A DNA stretch of 64,000 nt, from the NCBI GenBank assembly GCA_026545225.1, contig CM048846.1, forward strand, positions 36,901,501-36,965,500. The letters are read 5' to 3'. Of this stretch, positions 512-26,197 are shown in pieces (the stretch's first letter is position 1; every line of letters starts with the position of its first letter). The notes beneath the pieces are model-generated. The model did not search any database, was not told the origin of the DNA, and worked only from the letters and a program-made list of their open reading frames with translations. This DNA comes from Cornus controversa. Its lineage: Eukaryota; Streptophyta; Magnoliopsida; Cornales; Cornaceae. The position numbers and the translations under genes were made by a program.

Positions 512-661
512 GAAGGTGAAAGAGATTCAGAAAACTCAAGGATTATTAATTGATGATGTAAAGCCTGTAATGAGTTTTAGTTGTAGGTGGAATCATCGAA
601 TCAACTTGATTGTTCATTATAGGTTGAGACTACTGTGATGGGTTACATTTCATGGAGCTCA

Positions 662-671
662 CACTACAAGA
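662..671 (+). repeat. CACTA left terminal inverted repeat
   Basis: CACTACAAGA, preceded by target duplication TCA. TTTTACGACGGGCC follows at 682-695 and recurs inverted just inside the right end. Confidence 0.9.
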
Positions 672-679
672 AAATTAGT

Positions 680-1330
680 CTTTTACGACGGGCCAAAACT
701 GCCATCAATGACTTTTTAAGGCGGCCACCCGCCCGCCCTCTATTAAGGTGTTATAATTACGAAGTTTTTTAAAGGCATGCGGAAACTTTTTAAAGGCGTT
801 CGAGAACTGCCTTTAATAATTCTACACACGCCTTTAAAATAATTTTTCAAGGCGGTTATTTAGTGTCTTAGAAATTGAATTATTAAAGGCGGCCCATACA
901 TGTCATCGAACTGTCATTATTTACGGCGCTCCGATCCCGCCCTAGAAGTTTAATTATTCAAGGCGGCCTCTAAATGTCATAGAACTTTTATTATTTACGG
1001 CGCTCAGACACCGCCGTAGAAGCAAAATTATTCCAGGCGGACCATGCATGTCATAGAAATGTCATTATTTACGACGGTCAGTTATTGCCTTAGAATCTTT
1101 ATTTACGACGTGCAATGCATGCCTTCAAATCTAATAGTCAGGGCCGAGTCTAGCCGCCTTAAAAGCTAAGCCAAATTTTTTTAAGGGCAGTGTTAGCCCG
1201 CCTTAGAATCTAGATATTAACGGCGTTTCTGGTCCGCCTTAGAAGCTACACTCATGATATTATTAAGGGTGGGCTTTGCCCGCCTTAAAAAACGCTATTA
1301 AGGGCAGCCATCGTCCGCCTTATAAAATTT
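680..1330. repeat. CACTA left subterminal repeat array
   Basis: Dense, imperfect copies of motifs such as ACGACGGGC, AAGGCGGNC and CGCCTTAAAA occur in both orientations, ending in a poly-T run near 1327-1345. In En/Spm elements such arrays are the binding sites of the TNPA-type protein. No coding potential is seen. Confidence 0.8.
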
Positions 1331-1884
1331 TTTTTTTTTTTTTTTGAAAATTCCTTTTTCTAATACCTCTCATTCCAAAAACCTGTGAAACCCAATCTAA
1401 AAGCCTGTGATACCATACATACAATACCAACATCAATTTGTATCGGAAGCTAAAAAACATTCAAATGAAAGTCGAGCCAAAAACACAGTTTGAATAACTT
1501 TCATCCCAACCCAAAAGTATGTGCATATCTAATTTGCAGATTCAAAGCTAGCACATTCAGCATGCTTAAAAATTACAACCATTAACAAATATAAAGTGAA
1601 CATTTAAAAGACGAATATTCTAGCTACAAATGAACTTAAGCAAAACACTGAACTTGAAGACGTAGTTGAGAGGCAATCGAAGCAAAATGGAGCAAGTACA
1701 ACAGGAGAGAAGGCTACTGCTACTGCTGCTCTGATTCATTATCCTGGGATTTAAAGAGAGAGGGTCAATGGAGCAAGTACAACAGAGAAAGGACAAAAAT
1801 ATCAATATATAATGAAATGAAACAATGAATATATATATAAAGAGGTATACTTGATATATATTCCTTTTCACTTTCCTTTATAAG

Positions 1885-2047
1885 TCTGCAAAAACTATTC
1901 TATGTACTGACATAGATTGTTTGCTCGAGGAACTCAAGTTGCCAAAATGGGAAGAGACAGTCGTTGGTGCAAGGACCAGATATGAGCAAATTATTAAGGC
2001 CCTTGCAGATAAATTTCCTTCAAAAAACTTGATGCTTGTCACACACG
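1885..2047 (+). pseudogene. Captured exon of a histidine-phosphatase / phosphoglycerate-mutase family gene
   Basis: One open exon of about 54 codons sits between a plausible acceptor (TATAAG at 1884) and a canonical donor (G|GTAACA after 2047). It encodes LLEELKLPKWEE, then RYEQIIKALADKFP, and ends in LMLVTHG. These match the C-terminal half of the plant phosphoglycerate-mutase-like (histidine phosphatase) proteins, where LLLVTHGE surrounds the second catalytic histidine. Neither the rest of the gene nor the N-terminal RHG motif is present, so this is a fragment. It lies just inside the CACTA subterminal array, in the same orientation as the other captured fragments and opposite to the transposases. 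The exact family member cannot be fixed from one exon. Confidence 0.7.
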
Positions 2048-2690
2048 GTAACAACTTTATGGATTTCCATCCATTCATAGTTTTTGAATAGATTTATGAT
2101 TAGAATACCATACGTATTTATTTTGGTGCCTCAAATCATATATAATATATAGGTACATAAACATATCCATGTCATACTTTTGATCTAGCGTGTCAGTGCA
2201 ACTTTTTGGATGCGTCTTGGGTTTGGTTCGGTCTGGTTCTGATGTAAAACAGAACCAAACCGGTCCCAGCAGTTCAAGATATATTAGAATCAAACTGAAT
2301 TGTTAGAATCAGTGGAACCGAACCGTAGATGATTGGTTCAATGGTTTTGGACTTTCTTATATATATATGCATATATAGATATACATATTAATCAAATGAA
2401 AAACCAAATCTGAAATATATATACACATAAGATGATATATATACACATAAGATTATGGCAAGTTATATTCTCTACCAATAACATGTATATTATATGATGT
2501 ACATATATTTATATTATCACTAATTAATGGTTTGGTTCAGTCCTTCTCGACCTCAAACCGGAATCGTACCAAACCGTACGATTTGGTTTGGTCCGGTTCT
2601 AACATTTTTTGTTAGGGCCTAAGAATTTCCATCTGTTTTTTATAATTAACTTGTTTGTTCTACTCATTGTTGAGAACCTTCTATTTCTAG

Positions 2691-4014
2691 GGGGTTGTGG
2701 ATATGTTTTGACTGGAGAAGATCCAGGTAAATTACCTTTTAGTGCTGCTCAAGTGTTGGGTGGTAAGCTGCTTCCAAATAGAGTTACTTCTATTGGGGAA
2801 ACAACTAAAATTGTACCTGCCCTAGAGCTTAAGGCTGGACAACTACATCCTTCTCTAAAGATTAAGCTGCAGCTTTTCCCAATAGATGAATGCACTCTTT
2901 TAGGATTGGAGAAGTGAGATTATGAACTGAAATTATTTAGCAAAACAGAATTCTTAAATGATTAGGTCTGTAATTATCAGTTTACAAAAATAATATTTTT
3001 CCTTTCTTATAGGATGGTCATAATCCATTTTTGGAACTCATAATTTAAAAAGGCTTTTGACTTTTGAGCGCTTAAACTTTTAGAAGCACTATATTTATGG
3101 TGCACATTACTTCTATTGTAGATCTAGATTCAGAATCTAATAGGTTCAAGTAAAGATACTGAACGATGAAGTACTAGAATGGAGTGGATAATACTTGACT
3201 GCTTTTGTTTTTTATCCATTTCATTTATACTGTGAAAAGTTTTAGAAAAGTTCTTCAATGAAGTTTTTAGTTTAGGTATCAACTTTCAAGAATTCGGCAA
3301 TTGTTGTCAGCTTTGCTTGCTCAATCTTTTGAGCTTGTGTATGTTCAGTTATTGCGCTGGAGAACCAATGGAAAGGCTTAGTTGCATTATATTTCCAATA
3401 CATGTTTTAGTTTTTCTTGAATGAGTTAATTTTGTTCTTACTAGGATGATGAAGTGAAGATTGAGGATAGCCTCGCACAATCAACAGTTCCATGGGATGA
3501 CAGTCTGACTAACTTGAGCATTGGTGGCCTGTTGTCTGAAGCATCTTTGCAGGGGAAAATCAATAATTGCGATCCGGAGTCAAATGGGAGCAAATCAGAT
3601 TTGCATCCAACTACGGATAAGGGCCCTATACAATCACTACTGCCATGGGATGATAGTCTAACTACCTTAAGCATTGGAGGTCTGCTATCTGAAGCATCAT
3701 TGCAGGGCAAGATCAATACTTGTGAACCAAAATTAGATGGGAGCAGATCGGGGTTGCAGCTAACTCTATTGATCTCTGATTCTTTTGATGCATTTATTGC
3801 GGGCCAAATGAATTCATATCCTCAAGTTTTAAAGCCAACATCACATGAATTACACTCATCTATATTGGACGCCGAAGAGACATGTCATGCATTTCCCTTT
3901 CGGAACTTCTCTTCGTCAGCCAAAGATGTTGTGGCTGTTAGTGGAAGTGTTAATTCAAGGGGCGGCAGTCGTGATACTAGTTCAAAGCCATTCAAATTTC
4001 CTAATTTTGCCGAG
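2691..4014 (+). pseudogene. Captured TKI1-like (TSL-kinase interacting protein 1) gene fragment, three exons
   Basis: Three exon-like blocks are visible. The first (2691-2915) encodes LTGEDPGKLPFSAAQVLGG and later LKIKLQLFPIDE. The second, at about 3013-3045, encodes DGHNPFLEL. The third (3445-4014) encodes DDEVKIEDSLAQSTVPWDDS and LSIGGLLSEASLQGKI, and ends at a GAG|GTTTGC donor. Order and motifs match plant TKI1, a nuclear partner of the TOUSLED kinase, from memory of the family. The first donor seems to have lost a base (GAGAAG|TGAG), so the first two exons no longer join cleanly. The N-terminal Myb/SANT part is absent. Within exon 3 the block WDDSLTxLSIGGLLSEASLQ occurs twice (about 3490-3555 and 3646-3711). 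It is a transposon-borne copy, probably non-functional alone. Confidence 0.72.
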
Positions 4015-4964
4015 GTTTGCTCCATATTTCTTTTTTGTACTCAGGTCTTGTTACTGCTATTTGCAAACAAACTCAAGCTTAATTTAGCTAGGCTGGTGAA
4101 TATAAATGTTCCATGTGTTATCATTGTAATTGTAGGTTGATATATTTACATGTCAAATGTGCTACATAGATTAGGGGAGAGAAAGAACATAGATTGAAGC
4201 TGTAAGAAAAGATAGGGTTGCCTTTGGCCCTATGTATAAAACATGAAAAAAGATGTGCTCACATAGCTGATATGGTTTGCAGGAAAGAAGCTTCATTAAG
4301 TTGAGTTATATAGAAAAAAAAATTTCATTAAGTTGAGTTATATAGAAAAAATTTACTTTCCAATCATTACCAGAACTGACAGTTCCAAATATACAAATAA
4401 TATATGTCAAAGGAAATGGAAGAGGAAAAAAAAAAAGGAATTTAAATATTTTGGAATATAAAAAATACCAAACAGCAAAAGAACAGTAATACAAACCTGA
4501 ACTTTGGCCAATAAACTGGGTAGCTTTAACAAACTCTCCAATTTTTGCCAACGCGTCCATGATGTCCCTGAAGCGAGTGTCATTATGCCAAGGTGGATAA
4601 AGTTTTGAATTAAAAAATAAAATAAGAAAGACACACCATTGACAATTCAAAATGGTTGTCTGAAGTCAGCATGAAAAAAAAATATAAGTTTGAATATACC
4701 AATGTATCATCATCACCTGACACTTCCCCTAAAGTTTGAGAAAATGATAACCCTCAAGTTTTGTCAATCTTTTGTTTCTGCAATAGAACATTCAGTATTA
4801 AAATCTCCAGAAACAACAAATGTTCTTTCTTTCAGTCACAGATAAGAAAACCAAATTAGCATTGAAAATACACCCATCTAATTTTCAGTCATTTTTATTC
4901 TACAAATAAACACAAAGAGACATTAATTAAATCTAATGCTCAATAGTATTAAGCACAAACTCAA

Positions 4965-5261
4965 CTGTCACGCCCCGGAACCCGGACCGCCGGGACTCCC
5001 CCGGACCGACCCGAACCCCGGTCGCGAACCCGTTTACTCAACCTCACGCTACAACCACCACCTGATCATACAATCTCAATTTCCCATTATTTTTACAAAA
5101 ATCGGGCATGACCCATTCTAAATAATCAACTCCTGGCATGTTAAACCTGCTTTCAATTCAAATGGACACTTCTGGGCACGTGTTCCCCCAACATTTATAT
5201 CTAACAGTCAAAATGGACACTTCTGGGCTCGTGTCCCCCCAGCATTTATATCTAACATGCA
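4965..5261 (+). repeat. LTR-like GC-rich start plus two tandem units
   Basis: TGTCACGCCCCGGAACCCGG at 4966 resembles the start of many plant Ty3/Gypsy LTRs. Behind it a unit of about 51 bp beginning ATGGACACTTCTGGGC is repeated twice (about 5163-5212 and 5213-5261). No matching 3' end was found, so this is at most a truncated LTR nested in the CACTA element. Confidence 0.35.
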
Positions 5262-6125
5262 TAATATAATCAAAAATATATGTCTCAGTCCTTCAATGTT
5301 CGTATTAAATACATACATCACATGAACAAAATACAACTGAATCAACATAATCGCTTCATACATTTAATCCAAATGTAATGCGTCTATCTAAATGACTGAA
5401 CATAAGTCAGATTCTAAGAAGACCAATCACTACCTCAGTAACTGGTGTTTTTGGCCTCTTTTCATTTTGACATGACTAACAGAAATTCAATCCAGTTTTG
5501 TGAACCCTCAGATGCAATTCTTAATTCAGTCACAAAATCCCACCCATCTATGTTTAGAGCTACCAGGAAGTCAAGATAAACAATCAGGGATGATTACTAA
5601 ACTGAAAGTGAAGTGTAAAGGTTTATGTGAACCAACTAAAAATATAAGCTTTAGTGATCAAGAAAAGAGAACTGAAAATAAAACCAGTGAAGTTGGGTAA
5701 AGAATTGACTGCCCATATTCTTGTCATAGAATTTTATACAAACAAACAAGTCAGCAATCAGTCCACAAAAATATCAGTATGAACTATGAAATAGAGACAG
5801 AAAGTAAAAACCATGTTATTGCAAATCTAAAACAGCATTAAATGACAGAATAGTAAGATGACGTGCCACATACTGAAATGATCAATCAGTACTTCTAACA
5901 TTTTTGACAATTTCGGACTAGGAGCACCATGAGACAAGCTATGCTGCATTTTTGACAAGTCAGCAACATGCATATTTCAGAAAATAGTTTCAGCAATTCA
6001 GCATTTTAAATGGCAGCTATGTAGAGCATTTTAGAACAGCCAAACTCAATTTCCAGCAACTTTAGATTTATGGCAGCAAGTTGAACAATTCAGCAAAGTA
6101 GATTTTCTGGCAGCATTAAAATTCC

Positions 6126-6290
6126 GGTAAAACAGATTTCAAACAGCAAGTATACCATCTAGAACACAATTTTAAGCAAGTGAAATAGGTAAAACAGATT
6201 TTCCAGCAAGTATACTATCTAGAACACAAATTTTCAGCAAGTCAAATAGCTATAACAGATTTTCCAACAAGTTTATCATCCAACCCAGAA
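6126..6290. repeat. Tandem repeat, ~60-bp unit
   Basis: About 2.7 imperfect copies of a unit containing AACAGATTTTCCAGCAAGT followed by ATCTAGAACACAA. Confidence 0.6.
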
Positions 6291-6655
6291 TTCTGTCCCT
6301 AAAGCAAAATAACATCAAAACTCATAATAGAATATTAGCAATTCAAACCCGAAGATAACAGAATAGCAAATTAAGTCCTCAATAATAGAATAGCAAATCA
6401 AATCCATAAGAGTGCGCCTGTGAGAGGTGTGTGTCAACAAGTAAGCCCCAACAAGTGCGCCTGTGATGGTGTGCATATATATATATATAGAGAGAGAGAA
6501 ACTAACCTTAGAGTTGTTTTCAAAAGAACCAAACATGCCCTTAACAGATTGCTTTCAAAAAAGTTCTATATATCTCTTGTAGAGATACAACCACAAAAAC
6601 AAGCAAAAAGCCCCAAAATACGATTATCCCTAAGGCTGAGCTGCAAATAAATAAA

Positions 6656-6744
6656 TGTTATATTTTCAGTGTCAATGGAATTAGATATTCAAATATTATA
6701 TATTATATTTTCAGTATCAATGGAATTAGATATTCAAATATTAT
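6656..6744. repeat. Two tandem ~44-bp units overlapping the 3' end of the TNPA-like gene
   Basis: The block TATATTTTCAGTNTCAATGG...ATTCAAATATTATA occurs twice back to back. The second copy reaches the stop codon of the Transposase_24 gene, so the duplication lies in its 3' untranslated region. Confidence 0.7.
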
Positions 6745-8773
6745 ACTTTGGAATACTTACTGATCTTGATAAACTTGCTAGGCCATGCAATTGAATTTCC
6801 ATGAGCTTGCCCAAGCAAATAACGGCCGGAGGAATCTGCCCTATACAAGGGAGCTTCGGATTCAAAGACAAAATCGACCCACACTTTCCAACAATCAGAA
6901 CCGAGTGGTGCATCACCTATGAGCGTAGAAGGATCTGAGGAGACAACTTCACCAGTAGCAACAAGTAATCCTGTCCCATTGTAATGGAATAACTCGCAAT
7001 CTTTTCTTTCAACATTTTCAGTAGATGGGACACGTGGTGCATTTTCAGTAGATGGGACACGTGGTGAAGCATTTGGACAAGATTGGTTATTAGCATTCTG
7101 TGTCTGGCATGAAAAAAAAGAAAAATAATTATGACAAAGCATTTTTAATATAAATGATGACAACGCATTCTTATTTTCACTTACCAACAATGATCTAAAC
7201 TCTTGCATTTGTTCCCTCATCTCTTCCCTCATTTGGTCCCTCATCTCTTCCCTCATTTCCTCCCTCATCTCTTCCCTCATTTTCTCCCTTTCAAGTCGCA
7301 TTGCTTCCAACATTTGCTCCCTTTGGTCCCGCATCATTGCTTCAAATTTCTTTTCATATCTTTGGGAATTTTCTTGTTGTTGTGCTTGGGTTTTCAATTT
7401 TGTAAGTGTTACCCCAAACCCAAGCCCTCTCACTCTTCCTCGATGTTCTGAACCAAATACATGATTGATGGCATCGTCATGAATTCCTGAACTTTGAGTC
7501 GTTTGGGAATATGTCTTAATTATTTCCTAAAATTTCATATTTTAAACACACGCATTAGTAACTTAATATAATAAATATAAATGATTAACTTAAATTATAA
7601 AACCTAAACATGTTACCACAGTCTCCTTGACTTGTTCATTTATGGGCTGACCATCCTTTCTCAAATGCGCTTTAATCCACACATCCACCCTTGAAATGTT
7701 ATCGGGCGTGTCAGACTCTTTTCGCTACATACCCAAACATGCACGTTTCAATTATTTGTGCTACTAAATCACAAGAACTATGGTTAGCATTAAATAAGTG
7801 AAGAAAATAAACATTCATTATTACCATTGAATCTTCTAATCGAGCATAGCCTAATCGGCTTGTTGTGTGTGGGGTAGTTATTTTGCTCCTCAATTCTTGT
7901 TTTTGTTTTCTTTCTTTCTGTAAATACAAAAAAGTTGCTAATTTATATAGGTCATGAAAATATATATCTATATATATATATATAATTAAAAAGTGCATAT
8001 AAATACTCACAGCATGCTCCTCCGATAATCGATTGGCAACAAATTCTTGCCACTCATCCACTGAATTTATATTATCGGGCTTCATTAAGGCAATGGCTCG
8101 TCGATTATTTCTCATGGACAACACATTATTTGTTGTATTTGATTTGTGATTGCGCCACGCCTTTCCCATCAATCCAAATGATACGCTTGCATGACAGTCG
8201 GCAACATCGAATCTTAGCTGCAAATATATATCAAATTATCAAATAAATATCCAAATATCATAGGGAGAACATGTTTTTATTCTTCTAATAGAGAATCAGA
8301 CACATCCTTCTACTAGCAAATTAGTAAAAATAAAATACCTTTATAATATCCCATAATTCTTGTAATAGAGACTCAGGCACATCCTTCCAGATCTTAATTG
8401 TTATGGGAACCCTCTCACGTGCTAGTACCCCAAGGCAAGAACTATACTTCTTACTATTATCACCAACTGGCTGCCCCCTTTCATTAAAATCCACAACTAG
8501 GCGCTCATTTGGTGTGGATGCTATCTTGTACAGTTGAGACTTTCCCCTACCCTTTCTTTTCTTTGTATTTGATGTAGCCTCAATGGAAGGTCCTTGAGAA
8601 GTAACTGGATCGGGTGAAACCCCACCAACTCTAAATTGATCGCCTGAAGGTGTCCTTGGAGAATTTGAACCCCCGCCAGAAATGCGTACAACTGATGGTG
8701 TACGTATCATTGCAGCCATAGCTGCTCGACGATTTCGTTCTGCACGTGTCTCACACTGTCTAGATGACTTCAT
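6741..8773 (-). CDS. TNPA-like CACTA protein (Transposase_24 / Ptta-En/Spm family)
   Basis: My model joins six minus-strand exons: 8773-8339, 8217-8011, 7917-7825, 7724-7617, 7526-7185 and 7103-6741. Every junction has GT and AG and falls in phase 0, giving 515 open codons. A basic Ser/Pro-rich N-terminus is followed by the Transposase_24 region (about residues 90-260, including RLVVDFNERGQPVG, then SFGLMGKAWRNH and EEWQEF-like sequence). A highly charged coiled coil with MREEMREEM repeats follows (about 330-385), then a C-terminal extension of about 120 residues. In En/Spm elements this protein is taken to bind the subterminal repeats and assist TNP2. An alternative first exon (8906-8889, MSEHPE) could splice at 8764 and replace the first codons. 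It lies downstream of TNP2 on the same strand, as in related elements. Confidence 0.85.
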
Positions 8774-9154
8774 TCCAGTACATGCATTAAAAGAAGAAGA
8801 ACATTAAAAATAAACATGTTTAAAGTTGATACTTAAATCAAAACAATCAATTTAAGATAAAACAACATTAAGTAAGATTGCTACTTACTTCAGGATGTTC
8901 AGACATAGTACAAATCGTTAGATGACCTGTAATCTTATCAAAGGAGTAATAATTCAGTTTATATTGGAGGCGCCACTATTGATTTAGAAAAAGAGCACCA
9001 GAAATAACATATTACCAGTTTAAGAAGGAATTTAATGCAAATTTAGATAGGTACATAATCACAACCATTCAGTTTCATCAAAAAATATGCTACAAGTAAC
9101 CAATTACAAACCAAAAAATATAACCAAGTAACCAAATACCCCTTTGAAAATATT

Positions 9155-12100: not shown

Positions 12101-12740
12101 GGAAGGTTATTATCTGTCGGAAGCATATCACGAATAATCTTAAGAAGCTCATCAAATCCAGTATCCGATATATTATGAGTAGCTTTGTGCTTATATAAAG
12201 CAACTGTTGCTGACATAATTGTATACTTCGTGCAATTAGGATATAGAGGAGTTTCAGCCTTTTCCAACGCCTCTCTGAACTCAAACTCTCTACTTCCATA
12301 AGTGGGAGCTGTTGTAGCATTTTCTTCACCATCAAAATACACATCTCTAAACATCTCATACGTTTCAGGCATTTCCACACCATCTTCAGTGCCTTCATTT
12401 TCTACATATGTAATCCGATTCTCTCCATGAAAGGCCCATACAGTATAAGCAGAATCCATTCCATTGATCACTAAGTGCTCGTACACCGTATCAAAATGTT
12501 GATATTGTGAGTTTAAACAATGTTTACAGGGGCATATAATCTTAGCTGGATTCCCTGCATTACGTTGGGCCCAATTGGAAAATCTACGTGCTCCATTTAA
12601 ATACTCCGTTGAAGCTCTACAATTGGAAAGTCAAAATTTTCATTATGACAAGAATGACAGGTATAATGTCTAAATTGTTATGGGTAAGGTTATTTAGGTT
12701 ATAATAACCTGTTATGAAGGTGCATCCAACCTTTATCCAT
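9155..12740 (-). CDS. TNP2 transposase of the CACTA element (Transposase_21)
   Basis: Five exons are read on the minus strand: 12740-12709, 12616-11050, 10947-10319, 10229-9945 and 9866-9155. All have GT-AG borders and compatible phases. Together they make 3,225 bases, that is 1,074 codons plus a stop, with no internal stop. The start ATG gives MDKGWMHLHNR, a typical TNP2 N-terminus. Next come the transposase-associated domain (about residues 12-75, CPCKHC), the Transposase_21 core (about 200-550, with CPKCG, LATDGFNPFGD, INDLLAYSNLSG and DVMHIEKNV), DUF4218 (about 600-735, containing KSHDCHVLMQQLLP and FPPSFFDIMVH) and DUF4216 (about 940-1020, containing SYYGVLKDIILLDYY and PLFHCDW). The protein should cut and join the CACTA termini. 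Domain complement and length match a full-length enzyme, so the copy may be autonomous. Only the splice model is inferred. Confidence 0.93.
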
Positions 12741-13831
12741 GTCTCCTTGCTAATTTATTCAACAATTGGCAACTACTAGTAGAAGTGACCAATAAACCTA
12801 AACAAGGTTCATCGTGAAACAAATCACAAAATGTAGGGCGTAGAAATATTCAACTGAAAATTAGGATATCAATGGTACGATGCTCGATAAAAATATATCG
12901 GTCGTGGCTTGATGAACATGGAGAAAAAATTCTGACAAGAAATAGAAAAAGGAAACCCTTTCTGAAAATCGACAAACTCATATATATGCATGTATGTATG
13001 TTTTACAGAGTATACATATATGTGTGTGTGTGTGAGAGATAGAGAAGAGAGACTTTGGGGTGGCGGCGGCAGCAGTGGTGTCACGATGGTGAAGAGGAAA
13101 GAGAGCATTGGTGGTGGGGGTGGGGGCGTTAGGCGGCAGCGGTCGTGAGAGAGCTCAAAAGGCCAGTGGGGATGGACATGGCTTGGTCAGAACCAAGGAA
13201 GGCAGTTAAGCCATGGTAGGCAGTGGCTTAGCTGTAGAGGATGGAGTCGGAGGTGGAGTTGTGCTCTGTACGAGTCACGGTGGGTGGTGCAGTATAAGGG
13301 TTTCTGTTTGTGCTTCATGTGCACCATGTATATGTAAATTGTTTGGCCGTGAATGGAAGAAATGAGATGAACCATAACCTAATCTCAAACCCATTGTAGA
13401 TAATGAGAAGAGCGACGGAAGTTAGTATGTGTTTGTGCATAAATAAATATATGTGAGTGTGTGGGAGAGAGAGAGATCGAGAGAGAGAGATTGGTTTGTA
13501 TATGTATAGAGGGGTTAATTTGGACTTTCTAGAGTTATAAGTGTAAAAAGGTAATTTTGTATTTTTTATTACATCCGCAGTGAAGTAAGTACTTTTGTAT
13601 ATTTACAATTAAGGGGAAAATGGTACTTTCACAGCTGCCGTTAAAGGTACTAATGGGGTAAGCTCTGTGTCAGAGAGATTTCTCAAAAAGTTTCAGTTGC
13701 GGGTAATAAGGCAAAACCTCAGGGGAGGTTCGGGTAATTTACCCAAAAATATAACTACATATATTTACATTTGTTGATGCACTATTTTTGGAGTCATTTA
13801 CAGATATTTGATTAAAACTCATGAAATTTAG
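12741..13831. other. Upstream region of TNP2 with a candidate repeat terminus
   Basis: There is no gene here. Read on the minus strand, it holds CT-rich and CA-rich stretches (about 13020-13045 and 13460-13490) that would suit a promoter or 5' leader for TNP2. Near 13690-13750 the sequence CCTCAGGGGAGGTTCGGGTA, followed by ATTTACCC, resembles a common plant repeat terminus (GGGTAAATTAC...CCTCCCCTGAGG), so a small transposon may be nested here. I could not find its other end. Confidence 0.4.
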
Positions 13832-14101
13832 GGCAGGGATGAGTCTCTAGAAGTAGCTTTTCCTAGGGGAGAATTGGTGGCTGAGTGGCTGACTACTATA
13901 GAGAGTGGATTGGTGTAGGATATTACATGTTGGAGCTCAGTCCATGATTGGAAGATATGGTGTCAAGAAGCTGCTGAAATTAATGCATTCCTAGATCTTG
14001 ATAGGTTCTGTAAGAAGCATTACAGAGGTCAAAGAACTTCTCCACAAGTGACCTTTTTGAGAACAAATACCCAAATTGAATCTAATGAGAGGAAAAACTG
14101 A
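13832..14101 (+). pseudogene. Unidentified captured coding fragment
   Basis: After a plausible acceptor (AATTTAG|GG at 13831) one frame stays open for about 90 codons, apart from a single TAG near 13916-13918. It reads GRDESLEVAFPRGELVAEWL, then CWSSVHDWKIWCQEAAEINA, then FLDLDRFCKKHYRGQR, and ends at a TGA at 14099-14101. The composition is protein-like and the position matches the other plus-strand captured fragments, so a host exon with a point nonsense mutation is likely. I do not recognise the family. Confidence 0.5.
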
Positions 14102-15330
14102 GGAAGAACATGCATGATGAATTTCAAAAAACAGTAACAACCCAGAAAAATAAATTTGAACTCCTATCTAACAGATAAGCCTAAAATAAGGGGAAAATGA
14201 GGGCAAGAGATGTGCATTAAAAAATTCTTATCGTTAAATGCTTTGTCGCACAGCACCAAAACATTTCAACTTTCTTAATTGGTTAAGGATATCTAAAAAC
14301 AATTTAAATCCCTGATAAGACTAGATTTTAATATTTTCTTGCCAAGAAATGAATTATATAACCAGTCAGACTCTGATTGATTTATTTATACTCTAAATAA
14401 TAAGGTAAATGATGCCAAAAGAGCAGGAGAAGCATGAATTGCGGGGCAATAAGTTGATAACATGATAAAACATCATAGGTGGATCTCAAAAGGAGACAAA
14501 TCAATAATGAGGTCATGAAATTTGAAGAAACAAAATATTAATTAAACAATTTTCATGAAGTTGGATACAATAGGGCAAACCTGCACATAGATGACACGCC
14601 AATCTTGTAAAAATTTTCCAAGTTTACGCCTTTGCCATGCAACATTTGTACAAAGAATTTTAAGCAAACTGACCACTAACTGCATTATTTAAACACAAAT
14701 TATAGATATCAGACAAAACAACTGGTGAAAGAAGCTGAAAGTATACAAAAAAGGACATGAAAATGAGGCTTATTCCATCCCCACTCTCCTTTTTTTTTTT
14801 CTTCCCAGCAAGCCAAAAAAAATACTTGAGAACAAAACACAAACTGTTGCATAGATGCTCAGCTAGACGACAATAACAAAAAACTAATAATAGAGTTCCA
14901 TGTCGCTTCTGATAATATCTGTCAATGCAATGCTGTAATGGAACTCACACAGGTATACTTGTTTTTCTTCCTCTTTGTGTTGCTGAAAATGTCAAAGTAA
15001 GGAGCATAAATAATATTTATTTTGCATGAGCAATGATTCCTAATTTCCTATGTATTCATTTATCTCTAGCATCCATCCGAGCCCTTCAAATCTGAGTGCC
15101 AAATGCGATACGAACTTGGTCTTCTTTTATATTCTACCAGTTATACTTTTTGTTGACATTTGTTGTTTAGTTTACTGGGCATTAATTGAATCTGGTTCCC
15201 TTAATTGATATGTCATTTGTTTATTTCATTTTAGTGGTTTGTCATTTTTTTTAGTGGTTATCCTACTGCTCGTTTTAATTTTCTATTAATTGAGATTTAT
15301 TTATTTATTTTTGATGTGTGAAATTGGCAG
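14102..15330. other. CACTA interior, no gene seen
   Basis: AT-rich sequence without long open frames. The end (about 15000-15330) looks like intron, running T-rich into the acceptor of the ribosomal-protein exon at 15331. Confidence 0.5.
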
Positions 15331-15474
15331 TGGTCCACCTAGATTTGAAGGAGATAGGCCAAGGTTTGGTGATCATGAAGGATATTGGATACTGTGGAGG
15401 TCCTAGAGGACTCCCTGGTGAGTTTGGTGAGAAGCTAGGGAGGAGCTCCAGCTGACTACCAACCTTCATTTAGG
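15331..15474 (+). pseudogene. Captured exon of cytosolic ribosomal protein eS10 (RPS10)
   Basis: The exon lies between a TTGGCAG acceptor and an AGG|GTAATT donor. It encodes GPPRFEGDRPRFGDHEGY, GGPRGLPGEFG and GAPADYQPSFR, the Gly/Arg/Pro-rich C-terminal tail characteristic of plant eS10 in the 40S subunit. Small insertions or deletions (around 15390-15400 and 15440) shift the frame twice, so this copy is dead. Only the tail exon was captured. It sits about 170 bp upstream of the SMXL fragment, and the two genes are unrelated, which supports separate capture events. Confidence 0.8.
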
Positions 15475-15645
15475 GTAATTTTTCTGTTTGGTTATCGTTA
15501 TTAGTGTAATTGCTTGCTGCTTTGTGTATTTTTGGATTCTAAAGCTAGTATATTTGTTCCAAGATTGAATAAGAATTTTTTTTGGGGGCAAGGAAAATAG
15601 GAATATTTCATGTGAAAATATATTATAAATTTGCACTGTTCTTGT

Positions 15646-16717
15646 CAAGCCCTTCTCTCTCTCCAATGCCTTGGTTGCTGCCTTCAAGCGTGCGCAAGCT
15701 CACCAACGGCGTGGCTCCATTGAAAACCAGCAGCAGCCCATTTTGGCTTTGAAAGTAGAGATAGAGCAGCTCATAATCTCAATCTTAGATGAACCAAGTG
15801 GATGTAGAGTCATGAGAGAGGCTGGTTTTTCTAGTCCTCAAGTGAAAACCAATGTAGAACAAGCTGTCTCTTTGGAGATCTGTTCTGAAAGTCCTGTGAA
15901 TAGCCAGTCCAAGAAAATTAGCACCAAATCACCAAGTTTTGGCACCAATTTCTCTCATTTTCCACCAATGACTCAGTTTAGATCATAACTAAGCAAACCA
16001 AGTACCGATAATCAAGTTTTGAGTGATGATGTAAATAGTGTTTTAAACACATTCATGAGCACTAAAAGGAAAAACACTGTCATTGTGGTGAGCAAAGGAA
16101 AAACTACTACTGTCCTGTGGAACTCATGATTATGGAACTTAGTAGAATGTTGAGTGCAATTGGAGAGAGTGGAAGGTTGTGGACAGTGGGGATTGCAATT
16201 CTTCAGACTTACATGAGGTGTAAAACAGGCCAACCTTCTCTAGAGTCTCTTTGGCAACTTCATGCTCTTACAGTTCCTGTTGGCAGCTTGGGACTAAGTC
16301 TCAACCTTGAAAGGTATTTTTATGAACTTAATTATCTATAAGTTTCATATTTGGATTTCTTATATCTCCATTTTCTTTTTGAATGTTTGTCTCTAAAATT
16401 ATTAATTTTTTTATGTGTATTACTAAAAGTAGATATGTAGCTAGGTTAAGAAATTTTATTCCTAATTTTTGAATTTTGGTTTTACATTAATCTTTTTTCT
16501 TTTACTCTTTCCAGTGATGGATCTAGTTGGTCACTTCTTAAAACTGGAGTTGAGCAGCAGCTGACTTGCTTGCTCGGCTAATTTTAGGAGAGAAGCTCTA
16601 ACCATACCAACCACTACTCATAACCATGAATCCACCACCACTTCGACTAGCTCAAGCTTTCCTTCATGGCTTCAACAGTACAAGGAAGAGAAAAGAAGAG
16701 CGAGTATCAATGATCAG
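15646..16717 (+). pseudogene. Captured SMXL (SMAX1-like) gene fragment, two exons
   Basis: Exon 1 (15646-16313) encodes [16 protein letters not shown], then [20 protein letters not shown], then [20 protein letters not shown]. After frame breaks near 15985-16130 it continues with SAIGESGRLWTVGIAILQTY and LHALTVPVGSLGLSLNL. These are signature segments of the N-terminal double-Clp and following region of plant SMXL proteins, the Clp-ATPase-like repressors of karrikin and strigolactone signalling or phloem development. A 200-bp intron (GGTATTTT to TTTCCAG) leads to exon 2 (16515-16717), which ends SFPSWLQQYKEEKRRASIND. The Clp N-domain start and the ATPase half are missing. Parts of the linker are deleted and stops occur, so this is a fragment. 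Confidence 0.83.
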
Positions 16718-19700
16718 GTTTTCATTTTGACACAAGCCTAGTTCTATATATATATAAACCATCAGTATCAATGTTGGTTAACAAGAATTGGAAAACTGTT
16801 ACTTGATCTAAACCTCCTGGTACTGTATAGGCCGCCGCTAACCCCCCAACCTTAAGAGATATGACAATTGACCTGGACTGCTAATAGTAATAGCTCCATG
16901 CTGAAAGATATTTCTATCTATTGATAAATACTTAATTAACCTATAATATTTCCTCCTATTGTGTTAGCAACTTTAGAGCACGCACTTCAATTTCATGCTT
17001 TGAATGAAGACAGGAATTTAACACAATCTTGATAGGGCATTCCATGCTAATAGACCCAATTTCATAGGGCTATGCTGCCCCCCAAGAAAAATCACTCTGT
17101 GATTATAATAACATACATAAAAAGAAAAAAAATTAATTTTTTTTTAATCCCATAAAGGTTACAAACAAAATTACACTAGCATGTTCTAAGCTCCTACTAA
17201 GTGCAGCTCCCATGGACCATTCATAATAGATGCAGACAACCTTCATGACAGTGGGTTCTTTTGTTATGTTCTTCTAGGCGAATTACCACCAGTTTTTCTA
17301 ATAAAAAAGTAAAAATAGGGGATTCAATTAATCCAGTAAAAAAAACCACTTACCCTGAACAAAATAGCCAAGTTATTATTATAATATAAGAAATTTAAAT
17401 TTCCAATGAACAGACACATTTCATGATATGATTGGTGTTTTTTTTTATACTTTTGGTGACAATTCTACCACCAAACATTTCCAATATTATAATTTGTCGT
17501 TTAAGTCTTCTGTGCATGATTGTATCATTTTCAAAGAATCTTTCAAATAATTTAATTACACTAATCTGGAGACCAATAATATAACTCTCAAAGCTACAAC
17601 TAAGAAAACTTTTGTTAATATAATAGAATGACAAAAATGAGAATAACTAGCACTCATATACCTGCCAATGTACAACTTTTTAATGATGTATGCACTAAGC
17701 AATCCAATCTGCAAGCACAACAAGCAAAATATTACACAACATACATTGAAGTTTATGGAGGATGAGATGACATCTTTAAGTGCACAGTCACCTATGATAG
17801 CACAGGGTACTGAAATGCCCTAAAGAAAGAAGCCCAATGCACAATTTTTTCTCAAAACCCAACCAGTTTTATACAAAAGAAGCCATGTGACATTTTACTG
17901 TACATGGCCATGGTTTGAGTTATGTGAATTGCCTTAAAGCTTTCTTCCACTTTGAGGGTGAGAATACCTGAATCATAGTTTTCTTTGCATGTTTTACTTG
18001 AGTTGTGTTATTCCGCCATTTATTTGACCTGAGAATCTTTTTGCATACATGTATATTTATTGGTGTGCCCATCATAATTGTATTCAACATTCATATTAGG
18101 TATGTATAAATACTTTTTATCAACAGTGATGGTAGTTTGCTTTAGAAAGTTGAGTGTCTACTGCCAAATACAATATATGTATGGAGCTTTGTAAGCTTGT
18201 GTGACTAACTCTCCCTTCACAGCTACACCATAATATTTCCTTTAGACAATGGATGACATTAAGGTGACGACCAGTACACCAAGGATTCGTACTCTTACTT
18301 GTTAACCCTAGTAGATCCTAATTCTCACTCCTTAAAAGTCTTGACTCTAGAGCGGCTCATAGAACCCAAATGTTATGCATTCTCGACATTTAAACGGAAC
18401 CAAATACTTTTTCCTTCCTACTAAGTATAAATCACTCTTTTGTCCCAAAACAAAAGAAAACTCACATATTTTGCTCATAACCTGTTCTGGAACTTGCTGC
18501 CCCTTCTCCTCAAAACCCTCCAACTCCTCTTTACCACTCACCTTTCCTAAGGGATTGATTACAAGTGGAGTGCAGTGTATAGGTGAGTCACCAATAGAAA
18601 TTTCCCTTTTAGGCGTGGATTGTTCCTGATTTTGAGAACTTAAGGCATGGTTACATCAACATCCTTGCATAATTGATTCAATGCAAAATATACATAAAAC
18701 TTGTTAATAGTTTGTTAAGTGAACTTCGTGTTAGTCTATTTATTTAAGGATTCCGTCTCTCTCTATCTCTCAACGTACCACATAGATACACTTGCACCAA
18801 CCCATGTTTTTCTCGATGGTTCTAGCATTCATTTAATGTTGTGCAAGTGTTTGAATTCGTTCCCTCGTGTAATATTATTATTTGTTCCTTTTTTCCCTAT
18901 GGTTCTAGTAATTGTGTTAATGGCACGACTCTCTACGCACATCCTCCATGACCCATCTTTCTTTGGTGTTAGCAATGCTGGAAGGCATTATTGAAATGCT
19001 AAATAACACGAATTGACTAAATTTATGGGGAAACTCTTAAAAACAACAGAAACACAAAAATAAATGTAAAAACTATACTATGCACATAATTCAGGAATTA
19101 ACATTTGCAACTTAAGAGGCTTGAATGTGCAATATTCGGCATTTATCACATATTATACAATTATTATACATAAAGAATTTTCCCCAAAATAAATACAATC
19201 AAAACAAAATTACATAGCTTAGGGTTACATCAAGCCACTAGGAGTGAAGTTAGCTTCCTATAGGAGTGGTTGAAACCTCCCTTCCCTCCTTAGCTTCTCT
19301 CCTTCTGAATACATTTTTGTGCCGGAGCTACTGAATTCCAGTAGCTCCCTCTATCTCTCAATATGCATCTAGATGTCTCTATGAATCCTCTTGTGCCTCT
19401 GTTTGAATTCTTTTATAGCCAAATGCTATTAAATCATTGAAATGGCTTTTGCATATAAAAATGCATAGCAATGGTATCAATGTCAGCAACCTCATTTGCA
19501 TTTAATCTCTTCAATGTGTTAGCTGACCAAACCCATATTCTTCGTCTCTTCCTTCACACTCCCACCATTTCTTTTTCTTTTCTTATTCTCTACCCACTCA
19601 TTCTCATCTTCTCTTATTTCTTTCTTTTCTCTCTTTATTTTTCTTTTATTCTCTCTCTGCTAATCTTCTCATTCTTTAACTGACCACTCTCTATTTTCTC

Positions 19701-20914
19701 CACCAATTCTATTATTTTATTCCCCACCTTTTTCCTTTTCTCATTCAGCATCAATATATATATGAATAGATATATGTATATTATTTTTCCCTTCTTTTTC
19801 TCTTCCCCATTTTCTCTCTTTTACCTCTCTTCTTTATCTTCTTCTACTGATTCACTCTCCTCCTAATCGGATGCCCAATCTCTCTCTTTCTTTTTCTTTT
19901 CTTTTTTCACTTTCTTGGTTGACACAGCACACACATAATACATATATCAAACAAAATCATGTCTCAACCATATTTTTCAAACACAGAATGATTGTGTATA
20001 ATAGAATCATATGGATGAAATCAGAGAGGAAGATTTGAAGTGATATGGATGATATCAGAAACTGAAAATAGTAAAATAGAATTATATGCTCAAGAAATCA
20101 ATATTTGCAAGAGCAAGGTAAGGTAAGTTTTACCAATTTATGGTGAAGTAAAACTAATTTAAGAGCCCTAAATAGTTGTAATTAGTCAACAAGTATGATA
20201 AAAGATCACACTTCTAGGGGATGGATATTGAGGTTACTTAATTTGACTTTATGCTTAAGAAATATACCCAACAACAACCAACACCATTGCAGGCAAATTG
20301 ATCACCCAATTCTAAATCTTTCCACATGCCACAAGAAAGTTGGAATAAGCATTAGTAATTTAGCACAATCTAGCGGCTTAATTGAATCTTCTTCCAATAA
20401 AAGCGCAAAATATCAATTTAGGAATATATATATATATATATGCAGCTCCAAGCATTCATTCCAGAGGCACTATTATGTAATTAAGAACTAAAGTAGCAAT
20501 GACTAGGATATGAATTTTCTTTCCTTTCCTTTCATTTAACTTTTTACAGGGAAAAATTAACTTTATTAGAATAAAGTACCAGATCAACAAGAACTGGTTG
20601 AACAATTGCAAATACAAATCTAGCACAAAATATGTTATCAAGAAATCATTTAAGTGCCACAATTACTTGTACTTGGCAGCCTAAGTATATGTAAACCATT
20701 AACCATTTTTTCGTCCCAAACATGTTGGAAGCCTATGACTAGAGTAGAGAATTTGATCCAATCAAGAAGAGGAAATTGGAAAATCACAATCCGAAAGTGA
20801 CAAAATTCTCAACATAATGGGCTTGCTAATGCACAGGATCTACCAAATTAAACTTTCATTGAACACATAGCATTGAATGACAATTCCATGAAAAGACATC
20901 AACCTAATTAAGCA

Positions 20915-20945
<31 letters not shown>

Positions 20946-21525
20946 GTTTTATTCTTTTGAAGATTTGAATTTTCTTTTAAGCATATATATTATATCCTCC
21001 ACCATAGACCACTTTTTTTTATGAAAACACAGCATCTCCATGGCGGCTAAGTACTTTTCATCTACACTTCTCAACATTTCTATAAGGCATCTCCTCTTAA
21101 CATTGCACATGAAAGGAAACTGAGAACTCATCAGTATAGAGTTCCATATGATGCTAGCATGCTTACATACAGATGAAGGGAAAAAAATTCATTGGTTAAA
21201 AAGTATTACCTGCCCTTTCCTAGCCAACTAACACCCAAGTTCACCAGGGTGGTTGCTGACAAACAACCTGCAGAAGTCAACCAGATTGATTATTTTACCA
21301 ATTGACAAAGCTTCTAAAGTGCAACAAGAATATCAAAAGTTCCCCATTACCAAAATAATAGAATTATATTAGCACAATACCAAACTTTATATGTAAAAAG
21401 ATCATTTATCTTCTAAAAAGTAAAATTTAACAACAAAAAGAACAACATGGAAACTATTTACTGCAACTATCAAATTATAATTAGGTAAAAATGATTAACT
21501 ATGATGAGATACACACACACACACG

Positions 21526-21584
<59 letters not shown>

Positions 21585-24020
21585 GGACAGACAAAATTTG
21601 TCCATTGACAGGGCCGTTAGAAGAGAATCACCCATTTTAAAATACCAAACTTTGGTCTTGGGAAAAGTATGGCTGATTGGTCCAGAATTTTGATCACAAA
21701 AGATTTTCAATAGAATAACCATCTTATAAACCCCATCATCATATCAATTCCCGGGCTGCTATATTACCCCATCCCCATCAATAACCTAGACTTATCAATC
21801 ACAAAATCATTTGCTCACAACACACCATAATAAAATCAGCCATAAACTAAGACATCAGATATTGAGAAAGAAGATGGGAATCATATTCAAGAAAATGGAA
21901 CTAGATTCATAAAATGGAAATTATATTCAGAAGCCCCAACTTATTTGGGGGGAAAAGGGAATTTTTTTTTTTTCGTCAGAGTATTTTAGATATCAAAAAG
22001 AAGAAGCAAACATGTTTTAAAAATAACAAAACAAAACAAAAATATAGAACTATTAGATCTTTGTGTATAGAGAGAGATAAAGAGATAGACAACAACTAAA
22101 TGAAGACAATATCTAACCTTAACCCAATAATCTCTTTATATCCTCTAAATGAACGTGGAAAACAATGAATCTAATTTTATGGTACCAATGCAGAACTGCA
22201 AACAAGCCACGGATTAATTCAGGAACTCAATTGAAAAAATAATAAAAATAATTGCAGAATGAGAACCAAAGGTATAACAAGTTGAATGCACTGAAGGCTA
22301 CAAATTTTGATTGAAATTTTGAGTAGTCATTTCAATTAAGATATAAACAACTCTATCTAAATGACTCGAAATAAAACAAAAAGTACAAACTTTGGCTTTT
22401 GTTACAAAATTTGCCAACCTACGACATTAAGTCCTAACAAAGGTCAATTCGTTGATGGAAGTTGAGGCATTATTATTAATTGCTTTACCAAATGAAGAGT
22501 TATTACGTTCTCTTCAGCTATCTAGTTTCAAAGCAGGGCTCTTAAATAAATTTTTTGGTCATCTTTTATGAATTTATTTTGATGCAGGTTTTATCATTGT
22601 TTTTATCCAAGGGAAAGTGGTGGCCCCAAAGTCTACTAACACCCTAAATTCAACCCCAATATAAAGGTTATATTTTGCTTACCTGCATTATTAAAAAGAA
22701 AAACACATGTAGTGGCCTGATGAAGTTAGAAGAACTTTTTTTTTCCTCCTTGCAGTAAGTAGTTAGAACAGAAGAACTTCAAGATGATAATTATACATTA
22801 CTAATACTAATGAACACAATCAACTCAATAGTTCTAACCTCTATTTCCTGCTTGTTCCTTTTCAATTTCTTTTTAGTTTCCAAAGATTTTAAGCATCTAT
22901 CTGCAGATCATTCTTAGAATTTGTATTTATTCTACTATTATATTAAACCGTTCCAGATCACTTCTTTGTACAAATAGGGTTTGTTTATACTCATCCAAGA
23001 ATAAATGGAAATTCTTTATGATGCAAATAGTCCTCGTATATATTTAACAAATGCATGTTCTCTAAACTGAGACTGGAAATTTCATTTTGCCAGTCCAGCC
23101 AAGCAACCATAACTATTTTATTTGATAATTAAACGTAATGTCTTGATGCAGTTAAAAGCAAAATACTACATGGATAAACTTAGGTGCATAGTGACAAGTA
23201 TCATACTCAACAATTGTAGTGTTGTTTTCTTGCTTATTCTTTATTTATTTATTTATTTTTTCTGTTGTTGAAGATTTCAAACCATCTATCAGTGGATCTC
23301 TCCTAGAACATACTGCTAACCTAGTTTCACTAATTAAAACTACATCATCAATGAACAAGATTCATCCGAAGACGTGAATGCATAAAAACAACTACTATGG
23401 GAGCATAAAGAAGTCTGAACTGTATCAAATCTAAATTATAACATGGAAGGGAATTTATTGAACTAAAAGCTTCAATTTGTAACCAATGAATAAATACTTT
23501 TCAATGACAACAAAAAAGGCCCATCAAATCCATGTAGTGAGTTTAATTTTTATTACAGACCAAAAAAGAGAAACACAGAAAATCTATATTTAAATTACCA
23601 ATCTATGTACCAAAGACCTAAAAAGAGTACCAAATCAAAGAGTTCCAAATCAGAAACACAAAAAATCTATATTTAAATTACCAATCAATGTACCCAAGAC
23701 GTAAAAGGAGTACCAAATCAAAGAGTACCAAATCAGAGGGGATTTTAAAGGAGTACCTTTTAGGATAAGCTTCGATCATAGAGGAGTTCTTTATTACAGA
23801 CTTTGCCTCAATCAAGCTTGTTTAAGCTGAAGAACGACGTTGATTAGAGGTTAGGGTTTGATTGAGCTTTGATCTAGAGAGGGTTAGAGATTTTGGGGTC
23901 TTCAGTTATGTGCGGGAGTCAGAAATTAGAGAACGGTGCTGATCATAGGTTAGTTTGAGCTTTCATCTACAGAGGGTTAACGTTAGACATGATGAGGATT
24001 TGGGTTATGCGCGGGAGATC
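16718..24020. other. Long non-coding CACTA interior
   Basis: About 7.3 kb of AT-rich DNA with no convincing coding region on either strand; the open frames are short and lack recognisable motifs. It contains pyrimidine-rich stretches (19550-19900), a CA microsatellite and several short AT runs. Around 23520-23720 a block containing AATCTATATTTAAATTACCA is repeated twice. I cannot say what most of it derives from. Confidence 0.5.
21511..21584. repeat. (AC)n(AT)n microsatellite
   Basis: About 30 AC units with two ACGC interruptions, followed by about seven AT units. Confidence 0.95.
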
Positions 24021-24039
24021 AAAAATTGCACCGCCCAAA

Positions 24040-24295
24040 GTGAAGAAAAAATTAGAGCTTTCTATCACGGGCCAAGCGTGTGATAGATATTAAACTTTCC
24101 AACGCGGGCATGGCCCGTCATAGAAAGGTTATTTTCTAAGGCGGGCACACATAGCCCGTCGTAGAAAGTATTTTCTATGACAGGCTATGGATGACCGCCT
24201 TAAAAAATAACCTTTCTATGACGGGCTACACGGGCCCGTCGTAAAATGTACTTTTTACGATAGGCTATGCGGGCCCGTCGTAAAAGCCCTGTCAT
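24040..24295. repeat. CACTA right subterminal repeat array
   Basis: Repeated GGGCCCGTCGTAAAA and TTTCTATGACGGGC-type motifs alternate in orientation, mirroring the left array. Confidence 0.85.
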
Positions 24296-24308
24296 TAAAA
24301 CCCAAAAA

Positions 24309-24318
24309 TCTTGTAGTG
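24309..24318 (-). repeat. CACTA right terminal inverted repeat
   Basis: TCTTGTAGTG is the inverse of the left end and is followed by the target duplication TCA. Confidence 0.9.
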
Positions 24319-24712
24319 TCAAGTAGTTAAGATGGAGCCTTGGAGGTTTGATTGATCGAGCAAGGTACAGCGGGGGCAATCAAAGTTTTGTAGGAGGATC
24401 ATGACATCTTGGCATATAGAGTAAGGAAGAATTGGCTCCTTGAGTGAAAAGTCCCTAAATCAAACTCGGTTATTAGAACGATCCTTGAGTGGAAGTCCCT
24501 AAAGAGTGATTTGGTTTGTATGCAAGATTGAAGCTGCATTAAGTTGTCTTAATCAATGTGTTGGGAAGCGATGATTGGCTTGATAGAATTTGAGCCAAGG
24601 TCTATATTGCTATGAATTACGTCGTAAATATCTACTCTAATTAGGTTTCCATTATAGAGTTGCATTTTGTTAGGAATTCATATTAGACGAGTATGGGCTT
24701 CAAGGAATTATA
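24319..24712 (+). mobile_element. Right half of the CACTA-split LTR retrotransposon, with 3' LTR fragment
   Basis: 24319-24609 is internal sequence with no coding potential. From about 24610 the sequence matches the LTR at the window start (shared TCTAATTAGGTTTC and CAAGGAATT blocks) and stops at about 24712. Leaving out the CACTA element, the two LTR remnants are separated by only about 450 bp, so the host retrotransposon was small or heavily deleted. Confidence 0.55.
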
Positions 24713-25300: not shown

Positions 25301-26197
25301 ATAGTAAAATATAGGAAATTCTTATGCTTAAAAATATTGCATCCTTGAAGCTGTCCTCAACACAAAAACTAAAACTAGAAGAATGTAAAAGCAAAACAAC
25401 TAGTGGAATGACTTAATGAAAAAATGACAATTAATACATTAATATAGGAAAATTTTAAATCAACTAGATTGGGCTTCTTTTTAAGGCATTATCCAGCCTT
25501 TTATTTCCATTTTTCTCATTCTTTCCACTAAGGGTAAAAAAAAAAAATCTTTCCACTAACATGTTATGTTATATTAGAGCGTAAGAAGACAACATTCTTA
25601 GAACATGCTCAATACAAAATCTAAAAAAACATGCATGTAAAAGCGGAAAGACCAATGGCATTTACACTAAGATATGACAAAATCAACTTTGTTGAACACT
25701 CTAAATAACAAAAAATAGAAATATAAAAACCAAATACAAGAATTCAGGTAAGCATAAAATTCTTGTTTCCTCCTAGAAAACAAAAGGTTAGAAAGATGAT
25801 AACATTTTTTTTTTTAATTTGAAGAAAATAAAAGGGAGAGAAATTACATACCTACTATCTACATCCACAATTTCCCTTCCCTGTTTGGAAAGGTAATGGC
25901 TAGCGATCTTCTTCTGTAGTTCTCTTTCTTTTCCATTTGTATGTCAACAATTTATTTGTTTGGAATGGCAATGGCTAGCGATTTTTTGTATGTCAACAAT
26001 TTATTAGTGGCTTAATAGGATGAGATTAATATGTAATCACCAGTGCCGGTTGTTGAAAAAGTAATTTAATATGAAATATAGAAGGTTTTTCTTTAAGAAG
26101 AATTTGAATGTGAAAGTAACTCTCCCTAATAAAAAGGGTAAAATATTAATTTGAAAAGAAAAGAGGTGTTTGTGATTAAGAAGGTAACTCTTTAGCT

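Follow-up and report, generated by a model that had tools for sequence, protein, structure and literature searches.

CACTA transposons that capture host genes, single elements holding several captured genes, large putative autonomous elements and captures lying opposite to the transposases are all already in print, and the portions of those accounts drawn on here describe several systems close to the one treated in this work, a 23.66-kb CACTA element in a 64,000-nucleotide stretch of the Cornus controversa genome (contig CM048846.1; hereafter the window). In grapevine, Cactavine-5 is a CACTA of 21-25 kb with 14 transposase-bearing copies, 2 of which have potentially functional open reading frames; in two copies a piece of a PPR gene sits downstream of the transposase, in opposite orientation, and antisense RNA was proposed for it (PMC2528002). 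The Cornus element shares with it the large size, the transposase and the opposite orientation of captured sequence, but a single gene piece is reported in the relevant portion of that account, with neither serial captures nor a donor chronology. In soybean, the 5.7-kb Tgm-Express1 holds pieces of five unrelated genes, introns included, and Tgmt* is a 20.5-kb putative autonomous CACTA (PMC1947982, PMC2613891); gene-rich and putative autonomous elements are thus separate there, whereas open transposases and several captures are joined here in one element. The Tpn1 family of morning glory also captures host genes and has a putative autonomous member, TpnA1, but its gene-carrying members are described as non-autonomous in the passages used here (PMC5105172). 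Jozin-like CACTA of Chenopodium are complete elements in which captured gene fragments lie upstream of the transposase, although the fragments are described as single and short (PMC8978399). On wheat chromosome 3B, 140 capture events are recorded, with 19 captured genes expressed and dN/dS below 0.4 (PMC4290129). Constraint on captured genes is therefore already reported, but it was measured there against a Brachypodium homolog and here between transposon copies. Finally, Pack-CACTA or Pack-TYPE elements have CACTA ends around gene pieces but are defined, in the text consulted, as lacking a functional transposase (PMC8903248).

A transposase-bearing CACTA in which successive captures, their donors and their joints are resolved was not met in the literature examined, as far as the consulted portions extend. 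An initial annotation of the window had called the union of transposases and several captures in one element unusual; this is partly precedented by Cactavine-5 (PMC2528002, in the portion used), and the novelty lies in the resolved series of captures. Whereas plant transposons that carry genes mostly offer a snapshot, the genome examined here contains nearly identical copies, intermediate forms that have or lack each piece, and the loci that donated them, and the order and the joints of the captures can therefore be read. The account that we consider highly probable is of a CACTA that would have collected genes stepwise, with an old, constrained gene on its left side and a recent burst that carried passengers along. 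The initial annotation had counted at least four captured genes as if of one kind, but the cargo falls into two classes that differ in age and evolution. A passenger (the SMXL piece) and a piece seemingly kept by selection stand side by side in one element, which would make the question of why transposons keep host genes directly testable.

The ends and transposase genes of the element are as follows.

659..661, no strand: left target-site duplication TCA, read in the sequence
662..671, plus strand: left terminal inverted repeat CACTACAAGA, 10 bp; the other 13 copies end alike, one with a base change
842..1329, no strand: left subterminal repeat array, units of 37/74 bp and about 36 bp
6630..8906, minus strand: second transposase gene (Transposase_24 / Transposase_23), 8 exons, 516 amino acids
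9155..12740, minus strand: TNP2 transposase gene, 5 exons, 1074 amino acids
24124..24281, no strand: right subterminal repeat array, units of about 39 bp
24309..24318, minus strand: right terminal inverted repeat TCTTGTAGTG
24319..24321, no strand: right target-site duplication TCA

All five marks of the CACTA (En/Spm, DTC) superfamily are found, namely terminal inverted repeats, a 3-bp target-site duplication, subterminal repeats, a TNP2/TnpD-type transposase and a second protein. The stretch 662-24318 (23.66 kb, with minus-strand transposases), bounded by TCA at 659-661 and 24319-24321, is a genuine CACTA (En/Spm-type) element. Its ends, TCA duplication and mirrored subterminal arrays are all where the initial annotation had seen them, the terminal inverted repeats being 10 bp long. 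The left array is recovered by Tandem Repeats Finder at 869-1081 (score 272) and as repeat family D1 at 842-1103.

The assembly (771.7 Mb, 61 contigs) was searched with window positions 13832-16717, giving 44 matches, among them 14 places with the whole query at 99-100%. Both ends were read in all 14, and six copies beyond the window were fetched in pieces for pairwise comparison; copies are denoted here by cp numbers. Perfect 3-bp duplications flank every one of the 14: TCA (window), TCA (cp2), TAT, ACA, CTT, AAC, ATC, GGT, ATG, TGT, GTA, TAT, AAT and ATA. These duplications show that whole cargo-bearing elements have moved. Two doubts raised beforehand, that relatives with the same ends might be lacking and that donor homology might run on through the ends, are not borne out: 13 other cargo copies have both termini and 3-bp duplications (in cp11 the left terminus has one base changed), which excludes a chance likeness of the ends, and homology to the donors ends inside the element and never crosses its termini. 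The flanks of the window copy and cp2 match over 661 bp (99.85%) and 1605 bp (99.75%), and these two therefore represent one insertion, duplicated segmentally or in the assembly, which leaves 13 distinct sites. Element length varies between 23.66 kb, in the window copy, and about 27.3 kb. Pairwise substitution differences among the seven copies read are 0.32-0.55%, with little structure, and such closeness points to a recent burst of amplification of the cargo-bearing lineage. One copy, cp7 (C10:8.285 Mb), holds a 2.96-kb insertion without a match in the window (L026 1902-4861).

As the initial annotation had claimed, TNP2 and the Transposase_24 protein can both be spliced into uninterrupted frames (1074 and 516 amino acids); in our hand-made splice model neither gene has an internal stop after splicing and 11 of 11 introns are GT-AG. 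TNP2 matches the Pfam families Transposase_21 (4.7e-85), Transpos_assoc, DUF4218 and DUF4216, and the second protein matches Transposase_24 (2.6e-18) and Transposase_23 (3.1e-5). By the same splice model, both frames are open in two of the seven copies read, the window and cp4. A splice dinucleotide is altered in cp2, TNP2 has a stop in cp3, the second protein has one in cp5 and cp7, and both proteins are stopped in cp6. The window TNP2 has six private residues where the majority of close copies and the majority of three older copies share another residue, and its tnp2 domain reaches 284.6 bits, compared with 293.9 bits for that of cp4. The earlier suggestion that this copy may be autonomous thus holds as regards the two open frames, but its basis is open frames alone, found in two of seven copies and accompanied by the six private residues; open frames are no proof, and the window element is at most putatively autonomous. 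The family may offer many sources of transposase protein, with TNP2 found at 97-100% identity in at least 40 places (the best 40 of 389 candidates scored). Among the matches listed, full-length TNP2 occurs in 12 of the 14 whole-cargo copies and not in cp9 or cp12, where the spacing shows that the transposase part is missing; both of these would fit the Pack-TYPE / Pack-CACTA definition. Host gene fragments do lie between the ends, as in Pack-TYPE elements, but at least 2 of the 14 cargo copies appear to retain open transposase frames.

To the right of the transposases the cargo is made up of pieces that can be assigned to donors, and of a nested repeat.

12980..14910, plus strand: captured piece from C7:43.585-43.587 Mb, adjoining an NAA35 TPR exon, 97.3% identical to one C7 locus
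14911..15648, plus strand: captured piece from C9:55.655 Mb with a scrap of the last exon of eS10, 97.3%
15650..16756, plus strand: captured piece of an SMXL gene from C8:35.845-35.847 Mb, 98.1 and 96.2%, with a 253-bp deletion and a premature stop
17902..19959, no strand: nested 2.06-kb repeat flanked by TGT, missing from cp9 and cp10 (2 of 14)
22175..23514, plus strand: captured piece from C3:50.836-50.837 Mb, 97.2%, missing from cp5, cp9 and cp10

The initial annotation had proposed several unrelated captures, opposite in orientation to the transposases and with introns kept, and this description stands; to it are added here the C7 piece (12980-14910), the C3 piece (22175-23514), a pair of nested repeats and, at 3040, the loss of 562 bp that took out TKI1-like exons. 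The exon beside the C7 donor piece matches the NAA35 TPR protein (6.6e-8). Because cp5 and cp6 hold about 0.64 kb more of the C7 locus than the window, the window copy has suffered a later deletion at 12980. Capture of eS10, also proposed earlier, is correct in that eS10 sequence is present, but a whole captured gene is ruled out: there is a mere last-exon scrap, in which 18 amino acids match eS10 chains of plants and others (best 2.4e-6, with the query taken from the donor locus), and in the C9 donor locus itself the eS10 exon reads in a broken frame. The SMXL capture is borne out by a match to SMAX1 (8.8e-27). In the C8 donor gene the first exon is open for 399 codons; the captured piece has lost 253 bp with 5-bp microhomology and has gained one nonsense change. 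Compared with the donor it shows 3 synonymous changes in 140 sites and 9 nonsynonymous in 514 (1.75%; omega 0.82), and it is broken and drifts neutrally. The right-hand pieces are passengers, apparently decaying.

How were these pieces gathered? In all four of the related copies read at C2:95.2, C5:21.8, C1:14.8 and C4:29.7 Mb (L031-L034), the C9 piece is present with 8 bp more than in the window and the C7 piece is absent; the SMXL part is also present there in the search with 13832-16717. Two older relatives at C7:27.6 and C5:17.2 Mb (L035 and L036, two of two read) reach position 16770 without the SMXL, eS10 or C7 pieces. Among the 14 copies the nested 2.06-kb repeat is present in 12 and the C3 piece in 11. 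These presences and absences imply an order in which the C9 and C8 pieces came in, then the C7 piece, then the nested repeat and the C3 piece, and a stepwise gain of host DNA is what the compared sequences indicate. Measured against the majority base at each site among the copies read, the donors diverge by 0.73% for C7, 1.89% for C9, 1.86 and 2.52% for C8 and 1.35% for C3, values that fit a recent date, though not strictly the order just given. The C7 and C9 pieces overlap by 1 bp at their joint, the C9 and C8 pieces are separated by one unmatched base, and the homology of each donor ends at an internal joint.

The mechanism that we propose starts from a CACTA family in which TNP2 and the Transposase_24/23 protein would act on the 10-bp ends and the subterminal arrays, as in the superfamily at large. 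An older form would have carried the transposases together with an exon-shuffled, host-derived gene on the left, with a phosphatase-like exon a and TKI1-like exons b-d, and this gene would have been under protein constraint while two subfamilies diverged, presumably because it served the element. One lineage would then have gained host DNA to the right of the transposases, with the C9 (eS10) and C8 (SMXL) pieces first, the C7 piece beside them later and, in most copies, the nested repeat and the C3 piece as well. Capture may have occurred by repair of gaps in the element that copied unrelated templates, under which butt-joined pieces with an overlap of about 1 bp or one extra base are expected. 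That lineage, its left gene already frame-broken, would then have amplified to at least 13 sites with the cargo included; the cargo is thus no block to movement.

The left-hand cargo has a different history.

1915..2047, plus strand: exon a, with a weak likeness to histidine phosphatase (75 matching places)
2070..2181, plus strand: stretch matching, at 94% identity, sequence that lies upstream of the SMXL donor gene; cp7 holds 100 bp more of it
2691..2914, plus strand: exon b, TKI1-like, with the splice donor site shifted by 1 nucleotide relative to the older subfamily
3040..3041, no strand: point at which the window copy and cp2 have lost 562 bp with TKI1-like exons c1 and c2; cp3, cp4, cp6 and cp7 retain this sequence
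3445..4014, plus strand: TKI1-like exon d, which contains an internal duplication of 153 bp
4965..5446, no strand: nested high-copy repeat, skipped by older family copies

All 77 candidates for exon a were scored and gave matches in 75 places, of which 4 contain a stop; for exon b, with all 112 candidates scored, the number of places is about 33. These counts are of sequence matches, at not all of which the element ends were read. The capture of a histidine-phosphatase gene, as first annotated, has a weak match behind it, which scores 15.1 bits where Pfam sets its cut-off at 21.7. The TKI1-like part is homologous to a host gene on C8, but the name TKI1 for exons b-d, which we adopt from the first reading, is presumptive, and Pfam and PDB searches gave the protein no label. 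Neither the consulted portions of the literature nor any title among the papers listed links a TKI1-like gene with a CACTA family, which does not prove its absence from print. The sole match standing apart from the copies of exon b lies at C8:52.796 Mb (61% identical), where the sequence reads as a host gene with its exons in the same order as in the left cargo. Exon c1 shares 52 of 79 amino acids with this gene, with synonymous divergence (dS) of about 1.8 and nonsynonymous divergence (dN) of 0.28. The phosphatase-like/TKI1-like piece is accordingly old. Within about 11 kb of six older left-gene places (C3:26.2, C3:21.8, C10:3.9, C4:34.9, C9:10.0 and C2:88.7 Mb), whose ends were not read, a TNP2 match is found, which suggests that gene and transposase were together in the older form too. 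At C6:25.9-26.3 Mb (some clustered), C1:21.91 Mb and C2:9.08 Mb, exon a has, at a distance of 1-5 kb, a sequence that matches the SMXL piece (15668-15870) at 95-96%. Together with the stretch at 2070-2181, these neighbours hint at an older, separate SMXL capture beside exon a.

In the majority sequence of the old copies, exons a, b, c1, c2 and d join in one frame with canonical splice sites. A one-base loss at the exon-b donor and a two-base gain in c2 mark the young copies, and the window copy and cp2 lack the 562 bp as well. Comparison of the majority of 5 young copies with the majority of 10 old copies over exons a, c1, c2 and d gave 6 changes at 257 synonymous sites and 6 at 913 nonsynonymous sites (omega 0.28); noncoding sequence had 47 changes in 1740 sites, or 27 in 1399 once a fast intron stretch was set aside. 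Nonsynonymous changes between transposon copies are thus depleted in the left gene (one-sided Fisher test, p = 0.0045 against synonymous plus slow noncoding changes, 0.030 against synonymous changes alone and 0.0001 against all noncoding changes). At the same distance, TNP2 as a control gave 13 synonymous changes in 658 sites and 8 nonsynonymous in 2567 (omega 0.16), and the passenger control, SMXL against its donor, stands at omega 0.82. Until recently the left piece seems to have been maintained as a functional reading frame; in the young burst it is broken. It may go further and be a true third gene of the CACTA family, encoding a chimeric TKI1-derived protein kept under selection, possibly for handling host chromatin or silencing, and lost by the young lineage just before or during the burst. 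This extension we offer tentatively, as more doubtful than probable.

Several observations weigh against the account preferred here. The relatives that lack a piece could have lost it, and L035 has a clear large internal deletion. Although presence and absence place the C3 piece last, it differs from its donor more than the C7 piece does, and donor divergence by itself therefore does not set the order of capture. Template-copying repair is read from the joints alone, and TNP2 is interrupted by a stop in all three old copies read. For the left gene, the donor locus was not found in the genome, the nearest sequence being the 61% match at C8:52.796 Mb. The constraint amounts to 12 changes in a comparison of majorities, and exon b, missed by the exon finder, was left out of the count. 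Single old copies compared with cp7 give dN/dS of 0.32, 0.62, 0.83 and 0.85 (o4, o10, o6 and o8), only two of the ten old copies, o4 and o6, have exons a, c1, c2 and d all uninterrupted over their full length, and in o6 exon b contains a stop.

All cargo, left as well as right, might instead be neutral passenger sequence, the apparent left constraint arising from small numbers or from constraint on a host paralog before capture. This is a serious competitor, if somewhat short of an even chance: neither reading frame of the left gene is intact in young copies, single old copies decay, and the divergence of host and transposon sequences (the 52 of 79 amino acids, dS and dN of exon c1) could predate capture. 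The old/young test, however, is purely between transposon copies, where 6 nonsynonymous changes in 913 sites stand against 2-2.7% at neutral-type sites; the SMXL passenger reaches 1.75% at nonsynonymous sites, and stops occur in a mere 4 of the 75 matches to exon a. A further proposal, raised in the first reading and voiced for Cactavine-5 in the portion of that account used (PMC2528002), is that antisense or chimeric RNA from the element would silence its donor genes or otherwise interfere with them. The cargo does lie opposite to the transposases, the SMXL and C7 pieces retain 96-99% similarity to their donors, and Tgm-Express1 exons are spliced into host transcripts according to the text consulted (PMC1947982); we nevertheless judge such an effect of the Cornus element unlikely.

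Stepwise capture through gap repair also has competitors as to mechanism. In the Pack-CACTA model of Catoni et al., two neighbouring CACTA copies are mobilised jointly with the host DNA between them; the consulted passages report it for Arabidopsis Pack-CACTA with support in rice and maize (PMC8903248, PMC13317346). It would leave transposon ends between pieces, at least initially, whereas the three donor pieces, from three chromosomes, abut directly and no terminal or subterminal transposon sequence lies at the joints read, which makes this route improbable here. That the cargo pieces are independent nested transposons and not captured host DNA seems very improbable indeed. The repeats at 4965-5446 and 17902-19959 do behave as nested insertions, but the C7, C9, C8 and C3 pieces each have one donor locus in genic surroundings (the SMXL first exon of 399 codons, the NAA35 exon) and no bounding repeats or duplications at the joints read. 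Single donors in a genic context lead us to reject the view that these captured pieces are ordinary nested transposons.

Beyond the element, the flanks are alike at 17-124 and 24607-24712 (77%), that is, within 1-661 and 24319-24712, and near 510 the left flank has what we take to be a primer-binding-like motif; the CACTA may have inserted into a decayed long terminal repeat (LTR) retrotransposon. Resistance-gene-like pieces, partly duplicated (78.5%), lie at 25652-26907, 43828-45014, 45161-45520, 52875-53473 and 55823-56464 of the window, and from their motifs we assume them to represent TIR-NBS-LRR genes and their C-terminal domain. Large repeated blocks occupy 45477-63947, two of them inverted (48116-52886 against 56567-61413, 87%); open frames in them presumably resemble retrotransposon gag, judging by a CCHC motif, and the blocks are probably two LTR elements. 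Tandem or inverted arrays of TTGTCGC-type units at 27270-27495 and 33381-33847 are possibly subterminal arrays of other transposons.

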